DNA of 64,000 bases from Rhodopirellula bahusiensis (GTDB lineage Bacteria > Planctomycetota > Planctomycetia > Pirellulales > Pirellulaceae). The notes under the pieces are model-generated. The model made no database searches and was not told the origin of the DNA. It saw only the letters and a program-made list of their open reading frames with translations. Positions 3,265-64,000 of this stretch are shown here, one piece after another. The stretch lies in the NCBI RefSeq assembly GCF_002727185.1, contig NZ_NIZW01000009.1, positions 186,001 through 250,000 of the forward strand, read 5' to 3'. A program made the translations under genes and the position numbers. Each line of letters starts with the position of its first letter. Position 1 is the stretch's first letter.

Positions 3265-3331
3265 GGCGAACGACTCCGAAAATCAATCAACAACAAGCAG
3301 GTTAAAATCAGTACTACTACCGCGGAAACAT

Positions 3332-5606: not shown

Positions 5607-6893
<1,287 letters not shown>

Positions 6894-47671: not shown

Positions 47672-49006
47672 CTATTCTTGGTTTGCTTCAAGGCAATAGA
47701 GGTATTTCGCGCCGCGAAGAAAGAGCTGATTGCCGGCGAGCGCTGGCGAGGCATCGAAGCGGTCGTCAAGGTGATTGGTGGCGAGTTCGGTGTACTCGGT
47801 GGAACGTTCGAGGACGAGTGTTTCTCCGTCGCGACCGGTGATGTAGACGCGGCCTGCGGCTCCCACGGGTGACGCGTAAATGTTGGACAACTGACCGATC
47901 CGCTCGGGGCCGAAAACCCTCTCGCCCGATTTGGCGTTGACGCAGGTGAGGATCGATTGGTTGGATTGGTTGTAGTAGAGCAGGCCATCGTACAGCAGCG
48001 GCGATGGGATGTAGGGCGTGCCGCGGTCTCGCTTCCAAAGGATCTTTTCGCTTCCGGTGATGTCTCCCGTTTCGGTCAACGGAATCGCCATCGCGGCGTA
48101 TCCTTCGTAACCGCTCATGCAAATCACGTAGTCGCCCTCGATGACTGGACACGGAGTGACATTGCCGGTCAGCCCACTGCACTGCCAGATGATCTCGCCT
48201 GAATCGAGGTCATAACTGCGGACAGCGCCCGAGGCCGCGGTGATGACTTGGGTTTTCCCGCTATGCCGGATTACCCTGGGTGTTGCCCAGGCGTTGTCTT
48301 CATCTCGCTCGCGTTGCCACAGCGTGTCTCCGGTCTTGGCATCCAGCACTTCGATTGAGCTTTGTCCTGCGTGATCACGAACGATCACCAGCTTGCCGTC
48401 GTGCAGCACCGGAGAACAACCCTCGCCAAGGCTGGAACCGACCTTGGCTTCGCCGAGATCTCGCTCCCAACGTTTGTTGCCGTCGAGGTCGTAGCAATAA
48501 AGCCCGGCCGATCCGAACCAGGAATACAAGAGCTTGCCGTCCGTCGTAGGCGATGCCGATGCAAAATCGTTGTCGTTATGAGCGCCATCGTGGGGGATCT
48601 TCGTGATCGCCGTCCGCCGCCACAGTTCCTTTCCGCTTTCACGATCAAGGCACAGCACCACGAACGCGTGCTGCGTATTGGGTCGTTTGATGTTGAAGAA
48701 GTTGGTCTTGGGTTGGTCCTTTGGATCGGGAATCGAGGTGTCTTTTACACCCGTGTCAATCGCCGACAAAAGGAAGACCTTGTCGTTCCAAACGATCGGA
48801 GTCGAAGTGCCTTTACCATCGATATCGACTTTCCATTTGACATTCTTGTCTTCGCTCCACTGGACCGGTGGATCGGCCGTTCGAGATACACCCGTTGCTT
48901 CGGGACCTCGCCACTGGTGCCAGTTTCCATCGGGTGAATCACCGAAAGTGAGAGACTGCGAGAGTGATAGAAGTAACGATGTGATTGTGATGATATATGT
49001 TTTCAT
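47672..49006 (-). CDS. Secreted PQQ-type beta-propeller protein
   Basis: 444 aa with signal peptide (to SLTFG). The opening HQWRGPEATGVSRTADPPVQW and repeats DRESGKELWRRT, DAKTGDTLWQRE, DLDSGEIIWQCS and NAKSGERVFGP mark the fold. It is the intact counterpart of the truncated copy at 13.4 kb. It is last in the minus-strand series after the DUF1552 gene, with a repeat element in the 80-base gap. Confidence 0.9.
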   Translation of the reverse strand: MKTYIITITSLLLSLSQSLTFGDSPDGNWHQWRGPEATGVSRTADPPVQWSEDKNVKWKVDIDGKGTSTPIVWNDKVFLLSAIDTGVKDTSIPDPKDQPKTNFFNIKRPNTQHAFVVLCLDRESGKELWRRTAITKIPHDGAHNDNDFASASPTTDGKLLYSWFGSAGLYCYDLDGNKRWERDLGEAKVGSSLGEGCSPVLHDGKLVIVRDHAGQSSIEVLDAKTGDTLWQRERDEDNAWATPRVIRHSGKTQVITAASGAVRSYDLDSGEIIWQCSGLTGNVTPCPVIEGDYVICMSGYEGYAAMAIPLTETGDITGSEKILWKRDRGTPYIPSPLLYDGLLYYNQSNQSILTCVNAKSGERVFGPERIGQLSNIYASPVGAAGRVYITGRDGETLVLERSTEYTELATNHLDDRFDASPALAGNQLFLRGAKYLYCLEANQE

Positions 49007-49021
49007 GGCAAGTTTGGGGTT

Positions 49022-49090
49022 GTAGCGAAACTCGTCAAGAGTTTCGGTCTGTTAAGGGGGCGGGTCGAAAGTCTTGACGACTTCCGCTAC
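49022..49090. repeat. REP-doublet (REPIN-like) element, 69 bp
   Basis: The left unit starts GTAG and folds as CGAAACTC / GAGTTTCG around GTCAA. The right unit is CGAAAGTC / GACTTCCG around TTGAC and ends CTAC. The two hairpins differ by paired changes. The TAG at its right end (minus strand) is the stop codon of the DUF1552 gene. Confidence 0.85.
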
Positions 49091-50349
49091 GAAAGGTCGA
49101 TCATTCCCGTGCTGGTTCCGAATCGCTCGGTCTCGACACCAATATGCCGCAGCAGAGTCACAAACAAATTACAGAGCGGCGTATTCCGGTCTTGGTCATG
49201 TGCGACGTAGCGTCCGTGTTTGTAGCCGCCACCGGCAAGAATGATGGGAAGATTCGCCGGGTCGTGGGCGTTCGCGTTGCCCAGATTGCTGCCGAAAAGA
49301 ACGGCAGTGTGATCCAAAAGTCGTTCCCAATGTTCCGATCGTTGCCCAAGTTGTGACAACAAGTTCGAGAACGTTGAGAGTATTCCGGACTCGATGATTT
49401 TCAGTTGGGCGATCTTCAAAGGATCCTGGCCATGATGAGATAAAGGGTGATGCTCCCCCTGAACACCGGAGATGTTGGGAACCGCGCCGTGATCCTGAAT
49501 CATCAGGCTGACCACGCGCGTCGAATCGGTCTGGAGCATCAGCGGAATCAGATTCATCAGCTCTCGAATTTTGCGAATCAATTCCGACGGTTCCGTGACG
49601 TCCTTCGGTACTTTCGCATTTACCTTTGGCTTGGGTCGATCAAGCCACGCATCGGACGCGGCGAGTTCCCTTTCAGCCGTGCGTATGGAAGCGTAGTATT
49701 CATCCAACTGCTTCCGGTCACCTCCACTGACTCGTCGGTTGAGAGATTTTGTCTGATCACCAACGGCATCGAGGATGCTGCGACCTTCCGCAAGTCTTTG
49801 CTTCTGTCGCCGCTGTTCTTGCGGAGTTCCGGCAAGGAACAATTTCGCAAACAAGCGCGATGGCCGACAATCCGCCGGCAACATGACGCCGTTGCTGTTG
49901 TAGGACTGACTTTCTTGAGTGTTGCTTCCCAGCGTGATCGACGGAAACCGCGTCGCGTGACCGAGATGCATCGCCGCCGCCTGGTCCACAGAAATTGTGT
50001 TCTTGAAACCACTGAGTCCGGGATTGATCGCCGCAGTCAGAAAGGTCATTTCAGTGTCGTGCGGCTCCTTCCCATTTTGGTCCGGATGGGACAGCCCGGA
50101 AAATAGCGTAAAGTCAGTTCGGTGTTCCTCAAGTAGTTCGAGGTAATCAGTGCTCGCGTAGTTGGTTCCGGTTGTTTTCGGAAATAGTGATTGAGGCAAC
50201 AAACCGAGCGAGTTGCAAATCAGCACCATGCGTTTGGGTTGCTCCCCGCGTTCAAACCCGAACGCCGGATTCATTGCATCCAGCAGAGGCAATGCTAGCG
50301 CGACGCCGGATGCTTGGAGCGCGGTGCGTCGTGAAATGGGCGTGTGCAT
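49087..50349 (-). CDS. DUF1552 secreted protein
   Basis: 420 aa. A Tat-like start (ISRRTALQASGVALALPLLDAM) leads to typical DUF1552 sequence (GLSHPDQNGKEPHD, SYNSNGVMLPADCRPSRLF, HHPLSHHG, GSNLGNANAHDPANLPIILAGGG, cited in parts). It ends STGMIDLS, and the stop TAG is the first bases of the repeat element at 49022-49090. Unknown role; genomic partner of the PSD cytochrome encoded upstream. Confidence 0.93.
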   Translation of the reverse strand: MHTPISRRTALQASGVALALPLLDAMNPAFGFERGEQPKRMVLICNSLGLLPQSLFPKTTGTNYASTDYLELLEEHRTDFTLFSGLSHPDQNGKEPHDTEMTFLTAAINPGLSGFKNTISVDQAAAMHLGHATRFPSITLGSNTQESQSYNSNGVMLPADCRPSRLFAKLFLAGTPQEQRRQKQRLAEGRSILDAVGDQTKSLNRRVSGGDRKQLDEYYASIRTAERELAASDAWLDRPKPKVNAKVPKDVTEPSELIRKIRELMNLIPLMLQTDSTRVVSLMIQDHGAVPNISGVQGEHHPLSHHGQDPLKIAQLKIIESGILSTFSNLLSQLGQRSEHWERLLDHTAVLFGSNLGNANAHDPANLPIILAGGGYKHGRYVAHDQDRNTPLCNLFVTLLRHIGVETERFGTSTGMIDLS

Positions 50350-50361
50350 GATTTCTCTCTC

Positions 50362-50543
50362 GTAGCGAAAGTCGTCAACGGCTGGTTGATTTAGTGAGCG
50401 GCAAGGCGCTAGCCGCCAGTGTCAGTGCGCATACCGGCGGCTAGCGCCTTGCCGCTCACCCTTGCCAGTTCGGATTGTTGTTTTGGGTCGTCTTCAGTAG
50501 CGAGGAGTTGGTGGAGGCCGAAAGTCTTGACGACTTCCGCTAC
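50362..50543. repeat. Composite of REP half-units around a second palindrome
   Basis: A left half-unit (GTAGCGAAAGTCGTCAA at 50362), the perfect 24-base-arm palindrome 50394-50459, then a degenerate GTAG unit (50497) and a complete right half ending CTAC at 50543. The last TAG on the minus strand is the stop codon of the PSD cytochrome gene. Confidence 0.75.
50394..50459. repeat. Perfect inverted repeat, second repeat family
   Basis: Arms of 24 bases (50394-50417 and 50436-50459) are exact complements, starting GTGAGCGGCAAGG and containing GCGCTAGC, around an 18-base loop. It has no sequence in common with the GTAG elements and appears once in the window. It may be an insertion into an older REP doublet; no target duplication is visible. 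Confidence 0.85.
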
Positions 50544-53158
50544 CTGCATTGGAACATCCGGCTGCTAACAATCTCATGAATCAGTCCGCGCAGCGGGTAG
50601 TCGGCCTTCTCATGCCGGTCCAGAATTGCTTCCACCTCTTCCCTGTCAGCGAACTGGATTTCTGCCCCCGTGGCAAACGTGATCAACTGTGACACCAGAT
50701 TTCGCGCTACTTGCTCCTTGGACTTCATGAGGTGCTGTTTGAATTCGCGAATGTCGCTGAACGTGAAACCGTCCTCGGTCTGTCCGGTGCAGTCAACTGG
50801 CTGGCCAAGGTTGTAATCTTTGTGCAGGAAACGCAGTCCGGCGTCGGCGGTTCGTTTGACGCCTTTGCTAACGCGGTATTGAGTGCGAAAATTACCGACC
50901 GGATCAAAACATTCCAACGCGAATCCGGGAGGATCAATCCGGCGGTGACAAACGGCACAAGCCTGGACCGTCTGATGTTTTGCAAGTGTTTCGCGAATGG
51001 TTGTTGCTCCTCGCGTATCAGGCTCGATGGAACCGACACCGGGCGGTGGTGGACCCGGCGGCAAGCCCAGTAGATTCGTCAGCACAAACCTGCCGCGCCG
51101 GACGGGCGTCGTTACGGTTCCGCCCGCCGTCACCTTGGCAATACTGGCGTGAGTGAGAATGCCGCCTCGAACGCTACGCGGTGGCAGCATGACTTTGCGC
51201 ATTTCTTCGCCTTCGACGTTAGGAATGCCGTAGTGTTCGGCGAGTTTCCGGTTAAGGAACGTGAAGTCAGAATCGATGAGATTGGCGATGCTGAGGTCTT
51301 CGTCGATGAGGTGTCGAAAGACGAGGCGCGTTTCGGCCAGCATCGCTCGACGGAGCACATCGTCGTACTCTGGGTACATGTACTTGTCAGGCGTGGTGGC
51401 ATCGATCAGCCCCAGATCCAACCATTGATCTAAGAATTCGTTGATGAACCGCTCGCTGCGTCCGTCGGACAACATGCGGCGAACCTGAGCATCCAATGTT
51501 TTTGAATCGGAGAGCTTTCCGTCATTGGCAAGCCCGTGCAGTTCCTGATCGGGAGGACTGCGCCAGAGGAAGTAGGACAACCGACTGGCGAGTGCGTGTT
51601 GTGTGAGGGTTGAAACTCCGTAGCGGAAATCGTCATGACTCTCGTCCGATTTAGAGTGTGGCTGCCGAAAGTCTTGACGACTTCCGCTACCGACGGTTTC
51701 GTTCATCAGGAACAACGTCTCAGGGGAGATCAGGATCGCTCGCAACGGAACTCGAGCACTGGCGATAAAGCCCCGTTGGGCTTTGAGACTCGACGCGGCG
51801 AGATTGGTGAGGTCTTCGATCTCCTTGTCAGTTACCGGACGCCTGAAGGCTCTCGGTGCGAGCGCTGCGACGGCATCGCGAATATGCTCGTAATGGGACT
51901 TTGTTGTGACGGGACGGTAGCGGAAGTCGTCAAGACTTTCGGTTCGAGCGTCATTGCCCTGCCGAAAGTCTTGACGACTTCCGCTACGATTTACGGCTTC
52001 CCACTGGACTCCCGGGAACAGATCTCGCGTTCGCTCGGGAGGCCAGGTGGACTCAAGCGGCCCTTCGACAAGCACCTTGCGAACCCGCACGCCTTCACCC
52101 TTGAATTCGCTCGCGGGTTGCGAGTTGTAAATGACTTTTCCGTCGGGTGCCGGTTCGAGTTCGTCACCGCTTACGTAAAAGAAGTCGTCGGGGCGCATGT
52201 ATTTAATCGTCGAAACCGTGCGTAGTTTCGCATCGACGTCCCAGGCGGCAAAGAGTTCGCTGTCACCCTGAATGTCGTTTTGGCGTTTCAGGCTCATCGT
52301 CACCGAGGACCTCGACTGATACGCCGAACCGATGACGGTGATACGGTATCGACCGGTGACAGGAAACCGCAGGCCATTGTGGTCAGAGCGAAGGTTGTAG
52401 TTCTCGCCGCGGAACATGATGAGATCATCTTCGTCCAGGAAGACCGTGCCACCACCTCGGCGCACGGAACGCTGGAACCACATTTTCATGTATTGCGAAT
52501 TCGCGTAGTCAAGTTCGCGCACCCTCGTCGGGTTGGCACCCTGTTGAATCGCCTCATCGAGGGCAACATCGGCAGCTTTGAGGATCCCTTTGACATGAAC
52601 ACTCGACATGTCCTGCTTGGCGGTAACCACATCGAACACGTCCGATTTTGTTTCCGGAGGAAGGTACCGCGCGATGTCGCCACCGATACCAAGTAGATCG
52701 TGCAGCGTGTGTTCGTATTCAAGCCGGCTGAGTCGCCGCGACGGGACTCGACCGTTGTTTTGTTGTTGTTGGCGGTTGACGTCAATGAGATTCGTATTGA
52801 GGAACGTCAGTGCGGCGGTTTGCGTTGGTGTGTCCGGGCGAGGTTCTGATTCCGGGGGCATCTCTCCGCTGGAAATGCGGTCCACGATATTGACCCACGC
52901 ACGAAACGTACTGGCGTCTTCGAAATTCCGGTCGAGCTTCGTGAAGTCGAGGCGTGTTTCCGTATTCTCGTCGTGACAGGCGATGCAGGAGGATTCGATC
53001 AGTGGTTGCAGATCATCCGCATGGGATGGTTGAATGAAAATGAGTGCGAGTAGAACGGAGAGCACGTAGCGGAAGTCGTCAAGACTTTCGGCCCATCCAG
53101 AGTGTGCCTGCCGAAAGTCTTGGCGACTTCCGCTACGACGGGCTGCGGAACTCGTCAA
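50540..53158 (-). CDS. PSD-domain cytochrome (DUF1587/1592/1588/1585) with translated repeat inserts
   Basis: 872 aa if read from the TTG at 53158, which overlaps the upstream stop. A GTG at 53065 gives a proper signal peptide (MLSVLLALIFIQPSHA) and is the likelier start; the frame in front of it is itself a repeat element. Domain order: cytochrome c with CIACH, PSD2 (RLSRLEYEHTLHDLLG), a carbohydrate-binding-like PSD5, PSD4 (ALASRLSYFLWRS), PSD3 with CAVCHRRIDPPGFALE, and PSD1. Elements at 51917-51987 and 51619-51689 are read in frame as SGSRQDFR ... ESLDDFRY peptides (about residues 390-414 and 490-513), one in a domain linker and one in a loop of PSD4. Periplasmic; electron-transfer or surface role unknown. 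Confidence 0.88.
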   Translation of the reverse strand: MTSSAARRSGSRQDFRQAHSGWAESLDDFRYVLSVLLALIFIQPSHADDLQPLIESSCIACHDENTETRLDFTKLDRNFEDASTFRAWVNIVDRISSGEMPPESEPRPDTPTQTAALTFLNTNLIDVNRQQQQNNGRVPSRRLSRLEYEHTLHDLLGIGGDIARYLPPETKSDVFDVVTAKQDMSSVHVKGILKAADVALDEAIQQGANPTRVRELDYANSQYMKMWFQRSVRRGGGTVFLDEDDLIMFRGENYNLRSDHNGLRFPVTGRYRITVIGSAYQSRSSVTMSLKRQNDIQGDSELFAAWDVDAKLRTVSTIKYMRPDDFFYVSGDELEPAPDGKVIYNSQPASEFKGEGVRVRKVLVEGPLESTWPPERTRDLFPGVQWEAVNRSGSRQDFRQGNDARTESLDDFRYRPVTTKSHYEHIRDAVAALAPRAFRRPVTDKEIEDLTNLAASSLKAQRGFIASARVPLRAILISPETLFLMNETVGSGSRQDFRQPHSKSDESHDDFRYGVSTLTQHALASRLSYFLWRSPPDQELHGLANDGKLSDSKTLDAQVRRMLSDGRSERFINEFLDQWLDLGLIDATTPDKYMYPEYDDVLRRAMLAETRLVFRHLIDEDLSIANLIDSDFTFLNRKLAEHYGIPNVEGEEMRKVMLPPRSVRGGILTHASIAKVTAGGTVTTPVRRGRFVLTNLLGLPPGPPPPGVGSIEPDTRGATTIRETLAKHQTVQACAVCHRRIDPPGFALECFDPVGNFRTQYRVSKGVKRTADAGLRFLHKDYNLGQPVDCTGQTEDGFTFSDIREFKQHLMKSKEQVARNLVSQLITFATGAEIQFADREEVEAILDRHEKADYPLRGLIHEIVSSRMFQCR
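51619..51689. repeat. REPIN-like element inside the PSD cytochrome gene, 71 bp
   Basis: GTAG at 51619, CTAC ending 51689, 19-base centre. The left hairpin is partly decayed (GGAAATC, ATGACTC); the right is intact. It is translated on the minus strand between LFLMNETV and GVSTLTQ as an added ~24 residues not expected in this domain. Confidence 0.9.
51917..51987. repeat. REPIN-like element inside the PSD cytochrome gene, 71 bp
   Basis: Both units match the consensus exactly: GTAG, stem CGGAAGTC / GACTTTCG with loop GTCAA, 19-base centre, then the mirror unit ending CTAC. It is translated in frame between QWEAVN and RPVTTKS, at the PSD5-PSD4 linker. Confidence 0.92.
53066..53136. repeat. REPIN-like element at the junction of two cytochrome genes, 71 bp
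   Basis: It directly abuts the likely GTG start (53065) of the PSD cytochrome. Its centre (AGAGTGTGCCTG) resembles that of the 51619 copy, pointing to a common source. It is followed at 53143-53163 by a lone half-unit. Confidence 0.9.
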
Positions 53159-53163
53159 GGCTT
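53143..53163. repeat. Solitary REP half-unit remnant
   Basis: TGCGGAACTCGTCAAGGCTT is a left unit with altered ends. Read on the minus strand, its TTGA provides the TGA stop of the Vgb-lyase-like cytochrome gene and the overlapping TTG of the next frame. Confidence 0.6.
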
Positions 53164-55608
53164 ACTCACCGACTGAATGTAGGCGAGCAGATCGTAAATT
53201 TCAGCTTCCGAATACGTATCCAGCAGTCCCGTCGGCATCGTTGAGATATCCGCTGTCTTTCTTGCTTCAATCGAAGCCTTCGGCATCACTTCAATCTTCT
53301 CCGGCTTCAAAAGGTTCGGAATGAATTGAACTTCTTGATCATTTTCCTTGATCACCAGGCCTGTCCTCATTTGACCATCGTCGCCGAGGATCATCTGAGT
53401 TTGAAACTCTTTGTTGATCTCCGCCGAAGGCCGCACGATCTGAGTCAGCAACTTGGATCCCCGAAATTGCTTGGTAACCTCGGACAGACCGGGACCAAGC
53501 TTCTTTTCCCCCGGACCGATGTTATGGCAACGGCTACACGTCGCCTGTTCAAAAACGAGTTTTCCTCGTTCCAGGTTGCGCTGGCCCAGGTTGTCTGGAG
53601 CGTTACCAAAGCCGTGGTGTTGCCACTTTTTCACGAAGCGACGCTTCACCGGCAAATCGTGGTTGATGACGTGGTCGATGATCTTGACAAAGAACTGTCC
53701 ATCGCCGCGTCGGTCCGGATGTGTCTGCCGGAATTCATGCCATAGGGAACCGGCAAGATCGCGTTCGTGTTTCTCAAATGCGGCCATGCGCTTGTCGACG
53801 TATTCCTGGTGAGGCGTCTTTTTGTACGCTTCGGGCAGCGGTGCCGCGTCGATCTTGGCGAACAATTCAGCGTGGCCCAGGCTCGTCGACGGTTTGACCT
53901 TGGGTGCATCCGCGAGTTTGCCCACATCGTGATTGCCGTCATAGTGCTTCGGCGCGAGCTTGATCCCGCCGCCTTCGGGAAGCACCTTCGGCAGGGAAAT
54001 GCGGATCACGGCACCAACGCCGCGCTCCATGTGCCGGGCCGGCCCCGAAGTGCTCGTCCAAACATTACCGTCATCATCAAACTCGATTTCACGCGTGTAG
54101 GAAACTCGCGTGGGCAGACGGTATTCGACCAGCGTTTCCGTCTTTGGATCGAAGCGATTGATGGTGTCGTTACCGGTGCCGCAGACCCAGACGATGCCGT
54201 TCTTGTCGACATTCAACGCGTACGGAATCTGATTCTCGGCATCGGGCAACTCGTAGACGGTCCACTTCTCGTCGGTCGGATCGAACTTGCCAAAGACGCC
54301 TGAGCCGAACCCGGGCACCCAAACCATACCATCGGGAGCGACGTGCAAACGACGAGGGCCTCGGAAGGGCGGATTCCATTCTTTGATGTCGCCGTCCGGG
54401 GCGGTCGGATCAATGCGACCGATGCGGTTGCCATTCAGCTTGGAATACCAAATCTTTCCATCGATGGGTGAGTAGTCGATTCCATACGGCGTGATGCCTC
54501 GCGATTCGCCTCGACCTGCGCCCATGGCCTGTCCGGCGTTGAGCAGCTTGTATTCTTTGACTTCATGTGTTTCCGGATGAATCCAGAAGCATGAATTCGA
54601 ACCGGCGTCGGTGTACCAGATCAGGCCTTCTGGATCTTCCGGGTTGATTCGCAACGTATGTGGATAACCGCCACGCCGTTTGGGCGCCTCCGCGCTGCTG
54701 TAGGTTTCGAACTCCCGAGTTGTAACGTCATACCGCACCATTTGGCCCGTCGCGCACATGGTGGTCCACATGCTGTCGTCGTTGGCAGTTTCGATCGAGT
54801 GCGGACCATACGTGCCGCGCGGGTATTGCTGAGCTCGCTGTTCTCCCGTTTTCGGATTGAGGACGAGCAATCGATGCTGACTGATGTTGACGGCGTAGAC
54901 GTTGCCGTCTGGGCCGATTTCCAGGTCGTGAAAGGAACCTTTCAGCGGCTCATCCAGCTCCCACATGGTGATTGTGGCAGCAGCGGCCGCACCGGTTGAC
55001 GGCGGCGGTGGTTGGAATTCAGGCCAATTTTTGACGGCATCGTCTTTGTAAGTCTCCATCAGACGCTGAACAATGCTGTCCTGCGTGTGCGGATAAAGAC
55101 CACCAAAACCATCCATGCGGCGAATCATGGTTTCCCAGTCGACCGGCTTTTCGGGTGTGCGAAACCCCAGGGAACCAATCTGGTGACAATAGGAGCACAT
55201 CATCTTGAAGTTCATGCGGTCCCGCGGGTCGTCGAACTTGAGCATGCTGAACGCACTGCTGGCCGGACGTTGCAGTTCGAGTTCTTCGCCTTCGGCTCCG
55301 CGCGTTTTGATCGTAAGATCGTCAGTTCCCGCCGCGATCTTGCTGTTCCACTGGTCGGCGAGCCCCATCAGCCGCGTTCGAATGTTGTGATCAACATTCC
55401 GCAGACCTGTGATCTCGAACGAACCATCCTTTTGCGAGAATACGGAGGTCCACTTGCGATGCGCATCGTCGATTGCGGACACCATGACGCCTTCGATCGC
55501 CTTTCCGGATGCATCGACGATCGTGCCGCGAATGGATTCTGCCTGCGACTGGCCGATCATGAACAGACTCACGGCAGTCATAGCGAACAATGATATCCAG
55601 CTTCTCAT
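53155..55608 (-). CDS. Secreted Vgb-lyase-like propeller with carboxypeptidase-regulatory and cytochrome domains
   Basis: 817 aa from ATG 55608 (a TTG lies just before). Signal peptide to SQAES. A CarboxypepD_reg-like Ig fold (IRGTIVDASGKAIEGVMV) is followed by a heme site CSYCH, a virginiamycin-B-lyase/SMP-30-like propeller (about 215-560; GPDGNVYAVNISQHRL, VAPDGMVWVPGFGSG, DKNGIVWVCGTGND), a segment shared with the sulfatase C-terminus here (FAKIDAAPLP ... YVDKRMAAF ... SLWHEFR), and a terminal cytochrome c with CSRCH. Likely periplasmic electron carrier with a binding propeller. The stop codon lies in a repeat remnant. Confidence 0.87.
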   Translation of the reverse strand: MRSWISLFAMTAVSLFMIGQSQAESIRGTIVDASGKAIEGVMVSAIDDAHRKWTSVFSQKDGSFEITGLRNVDHNIRTRLMGLADQWNSKIAAGTDDLTIKTRGAEGEELELQRPASSAFSMLKFDDPRDRMNFKMMCSYCHQIGSLGFRTPEKPVDWETMIRRMDGFGGLYPHTQDSIVQRLMETYKDDAVKNWPEFQPPPPSTGAAAAATITMWELDEPLKGSFHDLEIGPDGNVYAVNISQHRLLVLNPKTGEQRAQQYPRGTYGPHSIETANDDSMWTTMCATGQMVRYDVTTREFETYSSAEAPKRRGGYPHTLRINPEDPEGLIWYTDAGSNSCFWIHPETHEVKEYKLLNAGQAMGAGRGESRGITPYGIDYSPIDGKIWYSKLNGNRIGRIDPTAPDGDIKEWNPPFRGPRRLHVAPDGMVWVPGFGSGVFGKFDPTDEKWTVYELPDAENQIPYALNVDKNGIVWVCGTGNDTINRFDPKTETLVEYRLPTRVSYTREIEFDDDGNVWTSTSGPARHMERGVGAVIRISLPKVLPEGGGIKLAPKHYDGNHDVGKLADAPKVKPSTSLGHAELFAKIDAAPLPEAYKKTPHQEYVDKRMAAFEKHERDLAGSLWHEFRQTHPDRRGDGQFFVKIIDHVINHDLPVKRRFVKKWQHHGFGNAPDNLGQRNLERGKLVFEQATCSRCHNIGPGEKKLGPGLSEVTKQFRGSKLLTQIVRPSAEINKEFQTQMILGDDGQMRTGLVIKENDQEVQFIPNLLKPEKIEVMPKASIEARKTADISTMPTGLLDTYSEAEIYDLLAYIQSVSKP

Positions 55609-55736
55609 CAATCAGTTCTCCAGCAGGGCCAGCAATTCACGGACGTTGACGCATTCCAGTCGGTGGTCGCCGACCGCTACATATAACAGAACCACGAAAA
55701 CGTCCGAATCGTGGACGAAATTCTCTCCAAAAACCA

Positions 55737-56492
55737 TCACTCAGAGTCTGACGACGTATCGAGCACCGTGGCTTTCAGAATCAGCTCCCGAAAACGCTCA
55801 TCAGAGACGTCATCAAGAAGCTTCAAAAATGCGATCAGGTTCGACTTGTCTTCTGCGCTCAGTTGCATGACGGAATACTCGTCGCTGATCTCATCCGCGT
55901 CTCCGGATTGCTTTCGATGCAACGCGTCGAGTTTCAACTTCATTGCCTTCTGCAGGTCAACTCCGCGACTGACAGAGTCTCGCAACGACGGCGTGAGCAT
56001 CGCTTCCTCTGCTTTGGTGACGATGTGCGATCTACCGTCACGGAAATCGGGCAGCGTATGACAGGCGGCACAATTGCCGACACTGGCCGCTCCTTCGTAC
56101 CTGAGAAACGTCTTGAAGCCTTCGTAGGCAGGCCGATCCATGCCGGGCGGTGCCTTCAGCAGGATTCGTCCTTCCTGATTCGCCAGACGACTGAAAATCC
56201 GTGCGGCGAAATCTTCCGGCGTTTCTTCGTCGTACGATTGATCTGGAATGCGGTTCACGTAGGAGAACGCATCGAAGACAGAACGCTTTGTTGTGGCGAG
56301 ACGATGAATGCGAGTCTTCGTTTCGATACCATTCGTTTCAGGCGTAGCGAAAGTCGTCGAAACTTTCGAATCACCACCCTCGTCCGATCGAAACTCGTGA
56401 CGAGTTTCGCTTTGAGTCGGAGGCGTAGCGGCCTTGGCAAAACCGGGGCAAGCCGGCAACAGAAAGCAAAAGAATTTGAGGATCGTTTTCAT
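55737..56492 (-). CDS. Small secreted cytochrome, peroxidase-like fragment with repeat insert
   Basis: 251 aa. Signal peptide to GFAKA. One heme site CAACHTLPDF; LTPSLRDSV and DKSNLIAFLKLL fit the C-terminal half of di-heme cytochrome-c peroxidases, whose N-terminal heme domain is not present. Residues about 27-50 (SETRHEFR ... SKVSTTFAT) are the translation of the element at 56344-56413, placed just after signal-peptide cleavage. It lies upstream of the Vgb-lyase-like cytochrome gene on the same strand. Confidence 0.8.
   Translation of the reverse strand: MKTILKFFCFLLPACPGFAKAATPPTQSETRHEFRSDEGGDSKVSTTFATPETNGIETKTRIHRLATTKRSVFDAFSYVNRIPDQSYDEETPEDFAARIFSRLANQEGRILLKAPPGMDRPAYEGFKTFLRYEGAASVGNCAACHTLPDFRDGRSHIVTKAEEAMLTPSLRDSVSRGVDLQKAMKLKLDALHRKQSGDADEISDEYSVMQLSAEDKSNLIAFLKLLDDVSDERFRELILKATVLDTSSDSE
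56344..56413. repeat. Divergent REPIN-like element in a cytochrome gene, 70 bp
   Basis: Left unit GTAG then CGAAAGT / ACTTTCG; right unit CGAAACTC / GAGTTTCG around GTGAC, with the final CTAC changed to CTTT. Both hairpins keep pairing despite base changes. The one-base-shorter length shifts the reading from one open frame of the element to the other, without a stop. Confidence 0.75.
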
Positions 56493-56558
56493 CTTATTAA
56501 TTCAGTCGCTTAAATCGTGGCAACTGAACATATTCAAGAAATAGCTGGTATAGCATTA

Positions 56559-57590
56559 TCACTCATTTGACTTTTTGAGATACTTGTCGAACCAGTTGAG
56601 TTCCATTTTCAGGATTGCATCCTGATGTTCGCCGTAGATACCGTAGTGAGTCATGCCCTCGATGACATGGTATTCAACGGGTGAGCTGTTCTCCTTTACG
56701 ATCTGCGCCACAAGCCCACCTTGCTGGGTAATGTCCATCAACTCCTCGTTGCCAGCATCGATGATCATCAGTGGGGTCTTGAGCTTTTCCACCGCTCGGA
56801 AAACATCGTAGACGACGTTTTTCGAAGGGTTGTAGCGAATGTGCTTATAAGCGGCCATCGTTCCGCCTGGAGCTCCGGTCTTGAAGGGAACCGGTTCGAC
56901 CTCGCCGCGAGCCTGTTGAGCCATCAGGGTGTACGCATGCTGGTAGTAAGGTAGACCGCGCTGCCCTCCCATGCCCGGCACTTGCGCGACGGCACATTTG
57001 ACACGCGGGTCATTCGCGGCCATCCAGGTTGCCAGTCCACCGCCGTAGCTGGTGCCAAAAACTCCGATGCGTTCAAAGTCGACGTTCGGTTCACCGGCGA
57101 TGAAGCCGATGGCGTTGCGGATATCGGTGATTTGGTCACCAAAGTCCATCTGCCAGCGGATCGCGCGTGCCTTGACGGCGACCTTGCCCTCGGCATCCGG
57201 TTCCGGCATTTCCTCCAGCATCATCAATCGGCTGTCGCTCTCGCCCCAACCGCGGTAGTCGAAGTTGAGGAAGGCGTAGCCGCGCCGGGCACTCTCGACG
57301 CCTAGCTTGATCGACCACGGCATCTTCTTTACTCCGCCCGTACCATGAACGAAGACGATGGCGGGTAGCTTGACATCTGCGGCAACATTCTTTGGCAGGT
57401 ACACGTCGCCAGCCATGCGCGTTCCATCGCTCCAGATCACCACCTGCTTCCGCATCACGTCGTCAGGCAGCGGAGGGTAGGGCTTGGCCTTCCAGGCGGC
57501 TCGCGACACGTCTTCCTGCGCAAAGGTAGGAAGGTTGAAAGGCAGTGCCAGCAGACACAAGCCAACGGCAAGGATTTGATTTCGACTCAT
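56559..57590 (-). CDS. Secreted alpha/beta hydrolase (acetyl-xylan-esterase / dienelactone-hydrolase-like)
   Basis: 343 aa from ATG 57590, starting a leader (MSRNQILAVGLCLLALPFNLP). HGTGG forms the oxyanion region, GTSYGGGLA the nucleophile elbow, and the His lies in GMTHYGIYG. Extra upstream ATGs give longer frames without a better leader. It is followed by the small cytochrome gene and preceded by the propeller gene on the same strand. Confidence 0.87.
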   Translation of the reverse strand: MSRNQILAVGLCLLALPFNLPTFAQEDVSRAAWKAKPYPPLPDDVMRKQVVIWSDGTRMAGDVYLPKNVAADVKLPAIVFVHGTGGVKKMPWSIKLGVESARRGYAFLNFDYRGWGESDSRLMMLEEMPEPDAEGKVAVKARAIRWQMDFGDQITDIRNAIGFIAGEPNVDFERIGVFGTSYGGGLATWMAANDPRVKCAVAQVPGMGGQRGLPYYQHAYTLMAQQARGEVEPVPFKTGAPGGTMAAYKHIRYNPSKNVVYDVFRAVEKLKTPLMIIDAGNEELMDITQQGGLVAQIVKENSSPVEYHVIEGMTHYGIYGEHQDAILKMELNWFDKYLKKSNE

Positions 57591-57621
57591 TATCATTATA
57601 CTTCTCTGCTCGATTTTCGCG

Positions 57622-59394
57622 TTACTCAGTTCCCGCTCCCATGCGATCGATTTCATCCTCTCCGGGGAGGCCAAAGGAGATCAGGGAACCCTCTAATTGT
57701 TGTTTCAGAAAAAGCATGCTCCCGGTCCCGACATAGATTCGGCCCCGAGAGATCGACGGCCCGCTCCACACTGTGCCGACGTGCAAGTCCTTGACCGTCC
57801 TTCCGGTCATTGCATCGACGACGATCAAGCGCTCGCTGACCGTGCTCGTGAAGCAGGCGATGCCGCCAGCGTTCAAGGCGATGCCCGAAGCGATTGGGTC
57901 ACCGCCGTCGTAACCGGGCACCCGAATGCGTGGCCGCTCGTGTCGCCAATGCTCGTCTGCAAGGTTGGCCGACAGACAAACAACGCGACCGGCTTCCGGC
58001 CAGTCCGGCGTGATCGTTGTGCTGGTGAGCCAGTCGATACCATTGGTGAAGACGCGTTTGCCGTCGGTGGCGCAACCTGTCTGGATACCGCCAATCGTAC
58101 TGGGTAACGCGATCATCCGAGGATGGCGTTTCGGATCCAGCGGGTACTTCGGCTTGCCCGTGTAAACTGGCGTGTTCCCAAAAATGCGCCCGTCTGCCGA
58201 GTCAAGCAGGTAGAAGCCTCCGTTCTTGCAGCCGACGCCGAGCACTGTGGCGGGTGACCCATCGGGCGTGGGCAGCGTATAGATCTTGGGCGTGTCACCA
58301 ACGGAACAGTCTTTGTAGACCCCAGCCGCCGGATCATACCCGGCCATTGCATGGTTGAAGACGTCATTCTTGTTCAACTGGGTGACCCATTTCTCGGCGC
58401 CGTTCTTGACGTCCACCGCGATCACGGCGGCAGAGTACTCGGTGTAGAGCCGAGCGTCGTCCTCCGTTGGTTCGCGCGGTGAATTGTGCACGTCTGTTCC
58501 GAAGAAGATCGTGCCCGTGGCGGCATCGAAGGACGGCGTGCACCAGACCGAACTCGTCGATGGTCCATAGTGGTAGGTACGCGTTCCCTTGACGTCCTCG
58601 ATCGTGATCGGCTTGCTGAACAGACGTGGCTTCTCACCGACCTCGTACTTCCAAACCACCTCACCGTCGTCCGGGTTGAAAGCGACGACGAAACCACGCC
58701 CCTGGCAGCAGGGATAGTTCGGATCGATGGGCTGCGAATGCTCGTAACCGCCCCCGCCCACGATGACTTTTCCGTCCGCGAGGATAGCCGAAGCATTGAA
58801 AAGATTGGCGTCGTGATGACCGGGAAAACCTAGCGTTCGGGTGTCAACCTTCCACAACTCCCTGCCGGTCAGCCGGTCGAGTGCATAAAAAACGCCAGCA
58901 TTATTGCCGATGTATACCGCTTTGTCCGTGACCAGTGGGGACGCCAGGAAACCGGCACCAGCATCGATCCGATTGAAGCCGCCCTTGGGCAACTCGACCG
59001 TCGCTCCCTCGCCAGGACGGAACACCCAGGCCACCTGGCCGTTTGGCTTGAGTTTGTAGAAGGCCGGAAACGATCCTGTGCCGAAGTAGACGTAGCCGTT
59101 AACCACCGCCGGTGTCCCGTGGATCACACCGATCTCCGCTGTCGAACCATCCGGCGGAAACCGCCATTTTTCGACTAGCTGCGGAGCCGTCTGCGGCGTC
59201 AGAGTTTTCTCGTCAGCGTTGTATCTCCAACCGCTCACCCCGTTGTTGTAGCTCTCCCAGTCGGCGTCGACCACGGGCGGAACGCTCTGCTCCGCAGCCT
59301 TTGCCGCCAGGCCTACGACGAGCAAGGAGATGACTGCGACAAGCACACTCGATCGATAGATCAGCCGTGATTGCAGATGGTCTGGTTCTTTCAT
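57622..59394 (-). CDS. Quinoprotein-like (PQQ-type) beta-propeller, membrane-targeted
   Basis: 590 aa from ATG 59394. An N-terminal hydrophobic helix (SVLVAVISLLVVGLAAKA) acts as signal or anchor. Propeller blades include WRFPPDGSTAEIG, DRLTGRELWKVDTR, NPDDGEVVWKYEVG and DVKNGAEKWVTQL. The NYPCCQGRGF cysteine pair recalls PQQ-dependent dehydrogenases, but a full set of PQQ ligands cannot be confirmed by eye. Possibly oxidises a sugar or alcohol and passes electrons to neighbouring cytochromes (inference). Confidence 0.82.
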   Translation of the reverse strand: MKEPDHLQSRLIYRSSVLVAVISLLVVGLAAKAAEQSVPPVVDADWESYNNGVSGWRYNADEKTLTPQTAPQLVEKWRFPPDGSTAEIGVIHGTPAVVNGYVYFGTGSFPAFYKLKPNGQVAWVFRPGEGATVELPKGGFNRIDAGAGFLASPLVTDKAVYIGNNAGVFYALDRLTGRELWKVDTRTLGFPGHHDANLFNASAILADGKVIVGGGGYEHSQPIDPNYPCCQGRGFVVAFNPDDGEVVWKYEVGEKPRLFSKPITIEDVKGTRTYHYGPSTSSVWCTPSFDAATGTIFFGTDVHNSPREPTEDDARLYTEYSAAVIAVDVKNGAEKWVTQLNKNDVFNHAMAGYDPAAGVYKDCSVGDTPKIYTLPTPDGSPATVLGVGCKNGGFYLLDSADGRIFGNTPVYTGKPKYPLDPKRHPRMIALPSTIGGIQTGCATDGKRVFTNGIDWLTSTTITPDWPEAGRVVCLSANLADEHWRHERPRIRVPGYDGGDPIASGIALNAGGIACFTSTVSERLIVVDAMTGRTVKDLHVGTVWSGPSISRGRIYVGTGSMLFLKQQLEGSLISFGLPGEDEIDRMGAGTE

Positions 59395-59463
59395 TTCCAA
59401 TGTCAATGGTGGGGTTTCGCGTGATTTGTGAACGTCATGTTGAGACGTACAGGCGATGTCTTC

Positions 59464-59542
59464 GTAGCGGAAGTCGTCAAGACTTTCGAAGATGGACGCG
59501 AACCATTGCGAGGCTACCGAAACTCTTGACGAGTTCCGCTAC
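59464..59542. repeat. REPIN-like element at the sulfatase 3' end, 79 bp
   Basis: Left unit standard (CGGAAGTC / GACTTTCG); right unit has the compensated stem CGAAACTC / GAGTTCCG; 27-base centre. On the minus strand the sulfatase reads into it as RSGTRQEFR and stops at a TAG in the centre (59514-59516). Confidence 0.88.
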
Positions 59543-62500
59543 GGATTGGTGGCTTTTCGCTGTCTCCCTTGCTTCCGGCAACGTGGGTGAGGATTTTGAC
59601 GAAAGACGCTCCCGGATTGGGCATGTCAGGATCGAGACGGCGTTTTTCTTTCCAGAGTTGGCCGACCTGGGAACGCTGTTCGGGTTTGAGACCGGCCATG
59701 ACGCGGTCGACGTAAGACTGATGGTTGTTTCCGTCGTAGCCTTGGGGAAGAGGATTCTTGTCGATGCGAGCGAGGAGCTTCGCGGTATCGGATGTGCCGG
59801 CGGCGGGCCAATCACGTGTATTCTCTTGAGACTTCTTCGCAGCGGCCAGTTCTTCGGGGGCGGGCCACTCTGGCGCGTCCGCCATCACACTTCGGTGGAT
59901 GGCAGCGGCTTGCTCTTTCAACCGGGCGGCGAGTTCGGGATGCTTTTCCGCAATATTTTCTTGCTGACCGAGATCCTTGGAGAGGTCATACAGCTCGACA
60001 CGACCAAGTCCGCTCTTTTTGAGTTCCGGGATCCAGGACTCTTGGAAGTAATACAATTTCCGGTGTTGCGCCCTCAGTCGATTGGCTTCGGGATTGGCGA
60101 AGTTCCCGTTGAACATTCGGGAGCGAAGATCCATTCCGCCTAACTCTTTCTCAAGATCATCGCCAAGGACTTCTTTGACTTCCTGCATGAGTCGATCGGC
60201 GCTCTTGAAGTCGATTGGCGATTTCGCAGTACTGGTAGCGAAGAGTGTATGGTCACCCACTCTCATGACCATGTTTGCCTCAGCCATCCAAAACAGGGGT
60301 TGATGCCTATTGAATGAATCGGAGCCAGTGAGCAACGGTGCGAGGTCGGAGCCGTCGAGATGCACGCCCCCGGGTTTGTCGATGCCGATCAGACCACACA
60401 GAGTGGGGAGAAGATCAACGACTCCAGCCGGTTCCTTCTCGACTCGTCCGCCGGCGATCCCGTCTTTCCAGTAGAAGATGCCCGGGACGCGATGCCCGCC
60501 TTCGAAAAGCGCCCCCTTCTTTCCACGCAGCTCACCGTTTCGCTTTTGCAGGTAACTGCCGTTGTCGGAGGAGTAGATGATGATGGTGTTGTTCAGCTCA
60601 CCTAGTTTTTCAAGCTTAGCGACGAGTCGCCCGATGGCCCGATCTGTATTGTCGATAGTGCCACTGTAGATTGCTTCCCGTTCGTTGAGCCCGCCATACT
60701 GTGAAACGATCTCGTCGGGTGCCGCGATCGGGTCGTGCGGTTCATTGAACCAGAGATTGAGGAAGAAGGGTTCGTCGGCGTCACGCTTTTGATCGAGCCA
60801 GGTAAGAGCCTCGTCGACGACGATCTGACAGGAATAGCCTTTGATGGTTCCAACTCGCTTTCCATTGCGCACGAAGTTGGTTGGGTCCTTGTGGCTGGGG
60901 CCAGGACCGTTGACGACACCGAACCAGTAGTCGAAGCCATGATCGGTGGGAGTGGGATTTTTGCGATTCTGGACAGGCATGCCGAGGTGCCACTTGCCAA
61001 AGTGGGCGGTGGCATAGCCGTTTTCTTGAAGCACTTCGGCGATCGTCGTTTCGCTCTCCAGGAGGTGCATCCGGTGAAAACGCTCGTCGAGGACCGAGTA
61101 GACTCCTGTGCGGCAGTGCTGACGGCCTGTTAGAAACGTGGCGCGCGACGGGGAGCAGGTAGGGGCGCCCGAGTGGAAATCGGTGAAACGCACCCCACCG
61201 GCGGCCAACTTGTCGAGAACGGGCGTCTTGACGGGACCGCCGTAGCAGCCGATGTCGCGGTAACCAAGATCGTCGGCGTAGAGGGTGACGACATTCGGAC
61301 GCTGCTTGGGCGTAGCGGAAGTCGTCAAGACTTTCGGCCCCGTAGCCCGTTGATCGCCGAAAGTCTCGACGACTTTCGCTACGGGGGCGTAGATAATCAA
61401 CGGTGTCCGGGTCGTCTGTTCCCAGAGCGCCGACTTCGCGATCTTCTTTTCGCCGACGTCGTAGCCGTGATCGCCCCAAAGGACAACAATCGTGTTGTCT
61501 CGATAACGACTGTTTTCCAATGCGTCGAGGACATGCCCGACGCAGGCATCCGCGAACGAATCCGCTGCGAGGCAACCCTGGACGGCTTCCTTCCATTTGC
61601 CGCTCTCGCGAATGTGTCTGATGTGACGTTCGCCCATCCGCCGGCCAATGGCGGGGATGTCGTCGAAATCGTCCGGCTCGTACGGTGGGAGTTTGATGTC
61701 TTCGATTGGATGAATGTCGAAGAATTTCTTCGGGGCATACCAGGGAAGATGTGGCAGGTAGATGCCACAACCGAGGAAGAAGGGTTTGTCATGATCTCGC
61801 TGTAGAAACTGAGCGGCACCTTCCGCAGTTTTCCAATCGGGATTGGCTTCGATCGCGTGATCGGTTGGTCCCCAGTCGATGAGACGCGCGAGAATCGGGT
61901 TGGATTCGAATTTCGGCCGCAAACCATGCTTGTAGCGTTCGTGTTTCGGCGGCGGGAGAGTGCCGGTGCTAGTGGAATAGACATGACCCCAGGCCGCAGC
62001 GTCGGAGAATTTGCCGTGAGCCTGATGGTAAAGTTTGCCGCCTCCCCAAGCGACGTAGCCGTGCCTGCGGAAATACTGCGGGAGCGACACCCAATCCTTG
62101 TACTGCGGCATGTCGCGAAACCAGTTCAGATTGCCATAGATGCCGGTCGTTGAAGGACGAAGCCCCATCATGATCGCGGTACGCGACGGGCTGCAAAGTG
62201 GAGCGGCGCAGTGGGCTTGCTCGAAGAGAACGCCTTTTCTCGCAAGCCGGTCGATGTTGGGAGTCTTCGCCTGAGAATGTCCGCCAAGACATCCAACCCA
62301 GTCGTTTATATCGTCGACGGCAATGAATAGGACGTTGGGCCGGTCGATCGAGTCGACGGCGTAGGCATGCCCATACGATGACGCGAGAGCGACGAAGAGT
62401 ACAATCGCCGAGAGGCACGTAGCGGAACGCGTCAAGAGTTTCGGCATCCGACTTGGCCGAAAGCCCTGACGACGTGAATCGCAGCTCGACCGCAAGTCTT

Positions 62501-62546
62501 GACGACTTCCGCTACGACGGGTTGTGCGTGCAATACGGAATTTCAT
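59514..62546 (-). CDS. Double sulfatase: two sulfatase genes fused through a repeat element
   Basis: 1010 aa. ATG 62546 has GGAGAG upstream; ATG 62447, inside a repeat, gives a neat signal peptide (MPKLLTRSAT, then a hydrophobic core to GHAYA). Domain 1 (about 66-385, iduronate-2-sulfatase-like) has RPNVLFIAVDDINDW, CSPSR and WGDHGYDVGEK, but ends at IIYAPV, lacking its usual C-terminal ~100 residues. About 23 residues of element translation follow (KVVETFG ... PKVLTTSAT). Domain 2 (about 415-900) has RPNVVTLYADDLGY, CSPSR, FGKWHLG and SSDNGSY, without its own leader. The C-terminal segment ARIDKNPLP ... YVDRVMAGL ... LWKEKR resembles part of the Vgb-like cytochrome. Each Cys could become formylglycine; domain 1 may be inactive. 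Confidence 0.88.
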   Translation of the reverse strand: MKFRIARTTRRSGSRQDLRSSCDSRRQGFRPSRMPKLLTRSATCLSAIVLFVALASSYGHAYAVDSIDRPNVLFIAVDDINDWVGCLGGHSQAKTPNIDRLARKGVLFEQAHCAAPLCSPSRTAIMMGLRPSTTGIYGNLNWFRDMPQYKDWVSLPQYFRRHGYVAWGGGKLYHQAHGKFSDAAAWGHVYSTSTGTLPPPKHERYKHGLRPKFESNPILARLIDWGPTDHAIEANPDWKTAEGAAQFLQRDHDKPFFLGCGIYLPHLPWYAPKKFFDIHPIEDIKLPPYEPDDFDDIPAIGRRMGERHIRHIRESGKWKEAVQGCLAADSFADACVGHVLDALENSRYRDNTIVVLWGDHGYDVGEKKIAKSALWEQTTRTPLIIYAPVAKVVETFGDQRATGPKVLTTSATPKQRPNVVTLYADDLGYRDIGCYGGPVKTPVLDKLAAGGVRFTDFHSGAPTCSPSRATFLTGRQHCRTGVYSVLDERFHRMHLLESETTIAEVLQENGYATAHFGKWHLGMPVQNRKNPTPTDHGFDYWFGVVNGPGPSHKDPTNFVRNGKRVGTIKGYSCQIVVDEALTWLDQKRDADEPFFLNLWFNEPHDPIAAPDEIVSQYGGLNEREAIYSGTIDNTDRAIGRLVAKLEKLGELNNTIIIYSSDNGSYLQKRNGELRGKKGALFEGGHRVPGIFYWKDGIAGGRVEKEPAGVVDLLPTLCGLIGIDKPGGVHLDGSDLAPLLTGSDSFNRHQPLFWMAEANMVMRVGDHTLFATSTAKSPIDFKSADRLMQEVKEVLGDDLEKELGGMDLRSRMFNGNFANPEANRLRAQHRKLYYFQESWIPELKKSGLGRVELYDLSKDLGQQENIAEKHPELAARLKEQAAAIHRSVMADAPEWPAPEELAAAKKSQENTRDWPAAGTSDTAKLLARIDKNPLPQGYDGNNHQSYVDRVMAGLKPEQRSQVGQLWKEKRRLDPDMPNPGASFVKILTHVAGSKGDSEKPPIRSGTRQEFR
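61312..61382. repeat. REPIN-like element at the sulfatase-sulfatase junction, 71 bp
   Basis: Left unit standard; right unit has the fully paired stem CGAAAGTC / GACTTTCG around TCGAC. It is read in the other open frame (KVVETFG ... PKVLTTSAT) than the copies in the PSD cytochrome. It lies exactly between the truncated end of one sulfatase and the mature start of the next. Confidence 0.92.
62419..62515. repeat. Extended REP cluster at the sulfatase start, 97 bp
   Basis: Three units: left GTAG unit (62419-62444), a decayed inverted unit (about 62458-62480), and a right unit ending CTAC at 62515. It contains ATG 62447 and encodes the N-region of the sulfatase signal peptide. Confidence 0.75.
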
Positions 62547-62581
62547 TTCTCTCCATCGGCCTTCGTGATCAGGTTGGATTG

Positions 62582-63319
62582 CTACTCATTCCGCTCGTCG
62601 GACTCGATCAGGCCGTCACGCAATCGAATCACTCGTTTCGCTCGTTCAGCGACTTCGTCCTCGTGCGTGATCATGACGATCGTCTTGCCGCTTTCATTCA
62701 GCTTCTGAAAAAGGTCAAGGACTTCGTCCGTGGTTTTGGAATCCAGGTTTCCGGTCGCTTCGTCCGCCAGAACAAAGTAGGGGTCGTTCACGAGACTTCT
62801 AGCGATCGCCACTCGTTGTTGCTGACCTCCGGACAATTCAGTTGGTTTGTGATACAAGCGGTCACCCAGACCAACCTGCTGAGCAAGTTCGCGGCATTTT
62901 TCGTTCGCGTCCTTGCCGATCAAACCCTGGTACTGCAGCGGCACCTTGATGTTTTCCATCACATTGAGTTGCAGCAGCAGATTGTACGATTGAAAGACGA
63001 ACCCAATTCGACGACCACGGATTCGCGACAACTGATAGTCACTAATTGTCGAAACATCATCGCCGGCCAGGAGGTACTTGCCGCTCGTCGGTCGATCGAG
63101 GCAACCAAGCACATTGAGCAGCGTGCTTTTCCCCGATCCCGATGGTCCCATGATCGCGATGTATTCACCTTGCAGCACATCAAACGAAACACCTCGCAAG
63201 GCGTGAACAGTTTCTCCTTTGAGAAAATACGTTCGATAGATGTCCTCGACTCGAAACGCATAGTCGCTTGCCGGGAGGCGATCGGCCTGGTCGGTGTTTG
63301 GTTCAGCGATGCTTGTCAT
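62582..63319 (-). CDS. ABC transporter ATPase, MacB/LolD type
   Basis: 245 aa with Walker A GPSGSGKST, signature LSGGQQQR, Walker B FVLADEAT and ITHED. It belongs with a MacB/FtsX-type permease; the gene just upstream on the same strand is such a permease, but broken. A repeat element lies 47 bases before this start. Confidence 0.92.
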   Translation of the reverse strand: MTSIAEPNTDQADRLPASDYAFRVEDIYRTYFLKGETVHALRGVSFDVLQGEYIAIMGPSGSGKSTLLNVLGCLDRPTSGKYLLAGDDVSTISDYQLSRIRGRRIGFVFQSYNLLLQLNVMENIKVPLQYQGLIGKDANEKCRELAQQVGLGDRLYHKPTELSGGQQQRVAIARSLVNDPYFVLADEATGNLDSKTTDEVLDLFQKLNESGKTIVMITHEDEVAERAKRVIRLRDGLIESDERNE

Positions 63320-63365
63320 GAGCCTTCATGCCGCCACGTGACGCATTGCGCGATTAAGTTCTGAG

Positions 63366-63427
63366 GTAGCGGAACTCGTCAAGAGTTTCGGTTTCGCCTG
63401 ACCGAAAGTCTTGACGACTTCCGCTAC
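63366..63427. repeat. REPIN-like element between ABC genes, 62 bp
   Basis: Left unit stem CGGAACTC / GAGTTTCG, right unit CGAAAGTC / GACTTCCG, centre of 10 bases. This purely intergenic copy shows the usual extragenic location of such elements. Confidence 0.88.
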
Positions 63428-63583
63428 CTGTTGATCGTGCGATGCTGAAATGAAAATGTCGAGTGCCGTTTGTCAGTCCTAAGCTTTGGAGAAACCAGGC
63501 CATCATCAACGACACCCGACCAGTTAGACCCGACAGTGCCGGTGATCGTGGACAATCGATTTTTCAAATACAGCGAAATTTCA

Positions 63584-63945
63584 TCATTCATGGCGCAGCG
63601 CCTCAATCGGATCTAGGTAGGCCGCTTTCCTAGCCGGATAGACGCCAAACAGGACGCCGACTCCTAGAGAAATGCCAAGCGACAGAACGACGGACCACAT
63701 CGCAATCCGAGGCTCAAGTGAATTGACGATTGGCGGCAATGACTCGGGAGAAATCGTTGAGATGACACGTTTGACCAGCCGAAACACTGGGCCAACAGAC
63801 AACCCGAACAAGACTCCCGCGATTCCTACACTGGCCGTTAGCACAACGGTCTCGATCAAGAATTGACCGATGATGTCGCTTCGTGTTGCACCGAGTGCGC
63901 GGCGAACACCAATTTCGCGAGTTCGTTCGGTGACGGTGGCATCCG
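63584..63945 (-). pseudogene. C-terminal fragment of a MacB/FtsX-type permease
   Basis: The frame reads TVTERTREIGVRRALGAT, IIGQFLIETVVLTASVG and ends VYPARKAAYLDPIEALRHE, the last three helices of the family. Upstream of TVTERT the expected GIGIMNIML helix is absent: the frame gives CDRRGSDADA and an in-frame TGA about 10 codons earlier. The gene is thus broken near 63940, and bases to the window end belong to something else that could not be identified. Confidence 0.75.
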
Positions 63946-64000
63946 CGTCCGATCCACGGCGATCGCATCAAATATCGGAAGAAGTATTCGATTGCCGGTT

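Follow-up and report, generated by a model that had tools for sequence, protein, structure and literature searches.

GTAG-REP dimers lie in frame, and are very probably translated, in a planctomycete PSD-type cytochrome gene

The window analysed here, a 64,000-nucleotide stretch of the Rhodopirellula bahusiensis genome (contig C9:186001–250000; draft genome of 7.78 Mb in 63 contigs), carries on its minus strand a gene for a PSD-type planctomycete cytochrome protein of 872 aa (50540–53158), recognized by its open reading frame and Pfam domains and with an uncertain true start codon. The protein scores above the Pfam cut-off for PSD3, PSD5, PSD4, PSCyt3, and PSD2, and just under it for PSCyt1. 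Three 71-bp palindromic repeats lie in frame within the gene (no strand is assigned to these dimers, here or below). The first, site A (51620–51690), falls between PSD5 (residues 427–485) and PSD4 (residues 518–645) and is read as SGSRQDFRQPHSKSDESHDDFRY, residues 491–513. The second, site B (51917–51987), precedes PSD5, is read as SGSRQDFRQGNDARTESLDDFRY, residues 392–414, and is made of two 26-bp arms that are 100% complementary. The third, site N (53066–53136), covers residues 9–31 and may lie in the n-region of the signal peptide, in front of the signal peptide, or upstream of a GTG start. Finally, a single repeat with 0 mismatches (50518–50543, minus strand) supplies the TAG stop codon of the gene from its GTAG. 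A sequence-only reading of this DNA had identified two in-frame 71-bp copies, A and B, which we recover, but its count fell short by the copy at site N and the single one at the stop codon; it had also described the surrounding domains as unbroken, and the Pfam domains are indeed whole, with sites A and B lying between them. We place the inserts in linkers solely from the Pfam borders, because structure prediction was too poor to serve (mean pLDDT 38.9 over 12 sequences). Between the PSD gene and the neighboring DUF1552 gene there is also a 27-bp inverted repeat (50394–50459, 96% complementary, 12-nt loop) that is unlike the REP.

The repeating unit reads GTAG CGGAAGTC GTCAA GACTTTCG G, that is, an unpaired GTAG followed by an 8-bp stem with a 5-nt loop, and the 71-bp copies are head-to-head dimers of this GTAG-tagged REP. 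Stem and loop fall within the range of the GTAG REP superfamily (stem 5–13 bp, loop 2–20 nt); with its terminal GTAG, its stem-loop, and its repeated head-to-head dimers, the element is a member of that superfamily. At ≤3 mismatches the 26-nt unit matches 16 times in the window versus 0 in 100 shuffles, and at 30 sites in the genome versus 0 for the reversed pattern; a chance origin of the matches is excluded. Most copies in the genome are head-to-head dimers of 62–97 bp with GTAG on the outside. A GTAG start is seen at 30/30 genome sites, a figure biased by the search pattern, which itself contains GTAG, and in 20 of 24 aligned copies. The latter (23 distinct, from five genomes) make up our hairpin alignment, and because these 24 rows were chosen by hand the pair counts do not describe a random sample: 90.8% of 184 cells are paired, compared to 87.6% in shuffles (2/500 as high) and 15–55% when slid. 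G-C, C-G, and A-U are all seen at the sixth stem pair, with two-sided change in 5 cells. Two of the five hairpin measures, the number of pairs with two-sided change (455/500) and that of further pair types (353/500), were no better than in shuffles, and Rfam gave no match at gathering score in 48900–64000.

The 30 genome sites group into 17 loci, nine of which are confined to 14.4 kb (C9:235022–249427, window 49022–63427) versus 0.03 expected. The unit occurs in 18 of 40 genomes, our own among them: every one of the 12 further genomes of the genus has it (2–101 sites), as do 4 of 12 more from the family (1–45 sites) and, outside the family but within the order, 1 of 15 (3 sites). The unit is also crowded elsewhere, with at least 11 sites in G011:C2:332402–352346 and 8 sites in G201:C16.

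To compare the sites across species, we took orthologues from named genomes (13 loci) and from 241 genomes of the family (16 at E≤1e-250, our own included), and arranged 22 rows, the window gene among them, in one alignment. Three of the named records correspond to genomes used elsewhere in the analysis: L096, a Rubripirellula MAG, to G201; L104, Planctomycetes bacterium SV_7m_r, to G221; and L101 to G024. Such relatives place the window in the family Pirellulaceae. Seven records were left out (L109, L110, L111, L114, L115, L116, L120), most of which resembled records already included in both place and site sequence; site A is empty in six of them and filled in L109, which shares a contig with L096. 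Within the alignment, 15 of 22 rows share an empty site A of exactly the same length, with a shorter stretch in L122 and L123. For site B, 17 of 22 rows share an empty site of uniform length, and L122 has a different length. Both results agree with the expectation of the sequence-only reading that related PSD proteins would lack the insert. Site A is filled in the window gene, L096, L108 (decayed), and L121; site B is filled in the window gene, L096, L121, and L123 (half decayed). The DNA of L107 also carries a site-A insert, for which the row has no aligned letters, its frame being broken upstream of the insert; the other filled rows keep the frame and contain no stops. When the window gene is compared to its G024 orthologue (640 of 841 positions identical), the net inserts amount to 69 bp at site A and 57 bp at site B, or the 71-bp element less 2 bp and less 14 bp of target, respectively. 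Both are divisible by three, although 71 is not. In L121, which is 65% identical to the window gene, the copies that fill sites A and B are of the CGAAAGTC/CGAAACTC subtype.

We used L096, in which both sites are filled, to measure selection on the host gene. Ahead of, between, and behind the inserts, respectively, dN is 0.103, 0.055, and 0.093 and dS is 0.855, 0.958, and 1.162, so that dN/dS is 0.06–0.12 across all three parts, as under purifying selection. With the sequence around the inserts selected in this way, a pseudogene is ruled out, and translation of the inserts as part of the PSD protein is very probable. PSD4, PSCyt3, and PSD2, the domains with the three highest scores, all lie behind both inserts, so that the product under selection is most simply reached by translation through them.

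The inserts themselves have changed in another manner. Between the window gene and L096, codon positions 1 and 2 are identical at 68 of 92 sites inside the two REPs and at 1383 of 1524 in the flanks, and position 3 at 34 of 46 inside versus 449 of 762 in the flanks; by Fisher's test the REPs are clearly lower at positions 1 and 2 (p = 6e-6) and marginally higher at position 3 (p = 0.045). Because the changes are spread evenly over codon positions, the insert is not evolving as a selected peptide; inside the gene, the REP behaves as DNA, and the inserted peptide is most likely neutral ballast. A peptide conserved as such is ruled out by this even change together with the reading of related REP DNA in other frames elsewhere. 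The sequence-only reading had named, as evidence against itself, orthologues with the same peptide and no palindrome: in L108, L123, and L105 the decay of the palindrome is accompanied by decay of the peptide, and other proteins read related REP DNA in different frames.

The same repeats affect further genes in the window. A minus-strand open reading frame of 1010 aa (59514–62546) contains two Sulfatase stretches, a shortened sulfatase 1 joined in frame to sulfatase 2, and a 71-bp REP dimer (61312–61382) forms the junction, read as VVETFG...PKVLTTSAT in a frame other than that used in the PSD gene. At this junction sulfatase 1 is without its C-terminal part and sulfatase 2 without a signal peptide of its own. 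Two more dimers lie at the ends of the frame, one of 97 bp (62419–62515) in or ahead of the n-region of the sulfatase 1 signal peptide and one of 79 bp (59464–59542) at the C-terminus. In G024 the relatives of the two sulfatases, at 65 and 55% identity, are encoded as distinct genes that point in opposite directions, and in L107 sulfatase 2 is an open reading frame of its own with a signal-like start (judged by eye, on a contig with frame breaks). G201 has a single frame of at least 1691 aa (L220:3–5075, minus strand), open at the contig end, with three sulfatase domains, one REP dimer between sulfatases 1 and 2, two between sulfatases 2 and 3, and a fourth at the start. L108 has a 1370-aa frame (3259–7371, plus strand) in which a decayed REP stands between two sulfatase domains. 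As judged from their predicted reading frames, the window genome, G201, and L108 thus each have sulfatases linked into a single frame by REP dimers.

Elsewhere in the window, a 69-bp dimer (49022–49090) overlaps with its GTAG the TAG stop of the DUF1552 (HXXSHH) gene (49087–50349, minus strand), and a 62-bp dimer (63366–63427) lies beside an ABC-transporter open reading frame (62582–63319, minus strand). A degenerate in-frame REP (56343–56411, minus strand), read as SETRHEFR...SKVSTTFAT, follows the signal-like start of the open reading frame 55737–56492; one arm (56344–56369) matches the unit with 4 mismatches, and the other is recognized solely through the peptide. Beyond the window, we looked for in-gene copies in nine hand-picked stretches, a choice that gives no intragenic rate, and copies lie in frame in a PSD1/PSCyt2 protein (L223) and a peroxidase (L219), both known only as open frames with domains. 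A paralogous PSD gene on contig C2 (L089, open reading frame 4285–6696, minus strand) has its stop overlapped by the GTAG of a REP at 4226–4288.

Taken together, we consider it highly likely that GTAG-REP dimers, as non-autonomous palindromic repeats, inserted into the PSD-type gene and are translated there as 19–23 additional residues. REPs would be able to insert in many places, moved in trans on single-stranded DNA, probably by a Y1 transposase of the RAYT/TnpA-REP type, unless the mover is extinct. Some insertions would keep the frame because the 71-bp copies are open in several frames (3–4 of 6 in the four such copies, 1–3 of 6 in four other dimers) and because bases can be lost at the junction. 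Insertions that fall between domains, at stop codons, or in the n-region of a signal peptide would survive and others would be purged, and open REP frames could bridge neighboring genes to give the REP-joined sulfatases. A bolder extension, conceivable though less likely than not, is that these dimers act as recurrent in-frame linker modules: they would have entered the same interdomain stretches independently, used native GTAG/CTAC words (a stop codon, a Tyr codon) as landing sites, traveled between species by recombination, and bridged neighbors into multi-sulfatase polyproteins in which the repeat, as linker, replaces stop codon and signal peptide.

The native words are found at two of the sites. 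GTAG is present at the stop codon in 7 of 16 readable orthologues that have no REP there, and CTAC at the junction Tyr codon of site B in 6 of 12 empty rows (by eye), while at site A there is no native GTAG or CTAC word at the junction. A guide role of GTAG in REP cleavage by TnpA-REP is discussed in PMC8266576. The words at the stop codon and site B are consistent with such a role, although two sites do not constitute a test.

Independent entry into the same stretches has to be weighed against one ancient insertion per site that was kept or exactly lost by lineage and homogenized through gene conversion by REPs of the same genome, a history that we regard as doubtful but worth serious consideration. 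Parsimony on the gene tree, from which L107 (frame broken), L102 (cut), and L118 (unclear letters) were left out, gives three gains at site A and three at site B (L107 uncounted), and the filled sites fall in separate parts of the tree; the number of gains is nevertheless uncertain, because 11 of 16 nodes have ultrafast bootstrap values below 80, and this weakness of the inner nodes leaves room for a single old event. Also in keeping with such an event, site A is equally long in the window gene, L096, and L108 (39 residues between fixed columns), and the stop-codon REP is identical in the window and L096 (26/26) while the DNA behind it aligns poorly. On the other hand, exact excision would have had to restore one length and a similar sequence many times, in 15 and 17 of the 22 rows, and it is disfavored because empty linkers resemble one another throughout the tree; moreover, the filled sites differ in length, site B by 2 residues between the window gene and L096 and site A by 3 residues in L121. 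The site-A elements of L096 and L107, identical at 71 of 71 positions with the spacer included, would also suit a single old event. Three 200-base segments over and beside this element in L107 are nearest L096 (91.5, 96.0, and 90.8%). Among eight segments upstream, the closest record is L097 for five, L099 for two, and L103 for one, and downstream it varies, which suggests from sequence similarity that the site-A allele of L107 moved by recombination. The PSD gene of L107 as a whole (9959–12141) looks like a mosaic, and its frame is broken near position 11197.

A second possibility is that the hairpins have been put to use, either as RNA or DNA hairpins slowing translation between domains or shielding the mRNA, or as a flexible linker of some benefit. 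The position between domains, the recurrence in the same two stretches, the intact 26-bp arms of site B, and the even change over codon positions would all suit such a role. It is unlikely, however, given that most aligned orthologues do without the insert and that the site-A arms are decaying in the window gene, L096, and L108, and the copies in other proteins, frames, stop codons, and intergenic places fit wide landing followed by filtering. It is very improbable that ribosomes skip the hairpins and produce a protein free of the insert: long perfect hairpins within an open reading frame do resemble bypass elements, but the filled rows keep their frame and have no stops (L107 being broken upstream), which bypass does not require. 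A pseudogene, which the sequence-only reading had also raised against itself, is ruled out by the low dN/dS and the whole domains, and an assembly artefact, conceivable in a draft of 63 contigs where palindromes can mislead assembly, is scarcely credible with both sites filled in the separate record L096.

In-frame GTAG REPs have been described before. Di Nocera, De Gregorio and Rocco (2013, PMC3733652) report GTAG and CGTC REPs in more than 80 species, Planctomycetes included, with in-frame copies in genes of several species and REPs that give stop codons; they propose that such copies are tolerated in linkers or loops, and that copies in linkers may be neutral. The premise of the sequence-only reading that REPs are normally excluded from coding sequence needs qualification, and our core finding is of a known type, because both in-frame GTAG REPs and the linker idea were published in that paper. 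Its elements resemble ours in the GTAG tag, the short stem-loop, the head-to-head dimers, the GTAG used as stop of a flanking open reading frame, and the in-frame copies. Families are described both from Planctomycetes (R. baltica) and from Verrucomicrobia (O. terrae), and one family is clustered in blocks; the intragenic cases of that paper may include R. baltica genes. The present case differs by its matched empty and filled sites, the selection on the host gene, the recurrence in the same stretches, and the REP-joined sulfatases. Furthermore, many of the published families, though not all, are tied to a Y1/RAYT gene flanked by the same REP; none was found among the Y1 loci examined here. 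In the open-licence literature that we searched, we found no planctomycete genes with matched empty and filled REP sites, same-stretch recurrence, or REP-joined sulfatases.

The resemblance that had been drawn to Rickettsia palindromic elements, also cited in PMC3733652, is one of behavior: in both, a palindromic repeat sits in frame within genes, with translation inferred from selection for the PSD-gene copies, but the host is another and the elements here are GTAG-tagged REP dimers. The enterobacterial RU-1/2/3 repeats (Delihas 2007, PMC2759123) are likewise small mobile repeats read within proteins, and as open-frame repeats are held in that article to make new proteins by fusion; unlike our dimers, they are MITE-like, measure 103–168 bp, and are not GTAG REPs. 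The question whether mobile palindromes can become protein can be approached with such PSD genes, matched empty against filled across several lineages. They offer the same stretch and frame, selection on both sides, and DNA-like change inside, and the joined sulfatases point to a way in which a repeat might fuse neighboring genes into a single enzyme of several domains.

REPINs are paired inverted REPs that act as a unit, are mostly extragenic, and are tied to a RAYT. Our dimers share the paired inverted REPs, but several of them lie in genes and no RAYT was found tied to them. The own genome has 10 Y1_Tnp matches, none of which is directly flanked by the PSD-gene REP, nor is any of the 30 loci examined out of 42 matches in six relatives. 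At one own locus (L214) two look-alikes with 7 mismatches lie ∼1.7 kb away, and at a locus in a relative (L149) REP copies stand about 1.3–1.4 kb from the Y1 gene. The sequence-only reading had spoken of protein-compatible mobile repeats; empty orthologues, frame, domains, and selection support the first part of this description, and the search for a directly REP-flanked Y1 gene, which found none, leaves the second without a mover. Other GTAG palindromes do accompany Y1 genes in the own genome, on both sides at L013 and L014 and on one side at L009 and L010. Including relatives, Y1 transposase genes amid several different GTAG palindromes are seen at L013, L014, L124, L131, L136, L137, L141, and L142, which are probably further REP/RAYT pairs in the genus.
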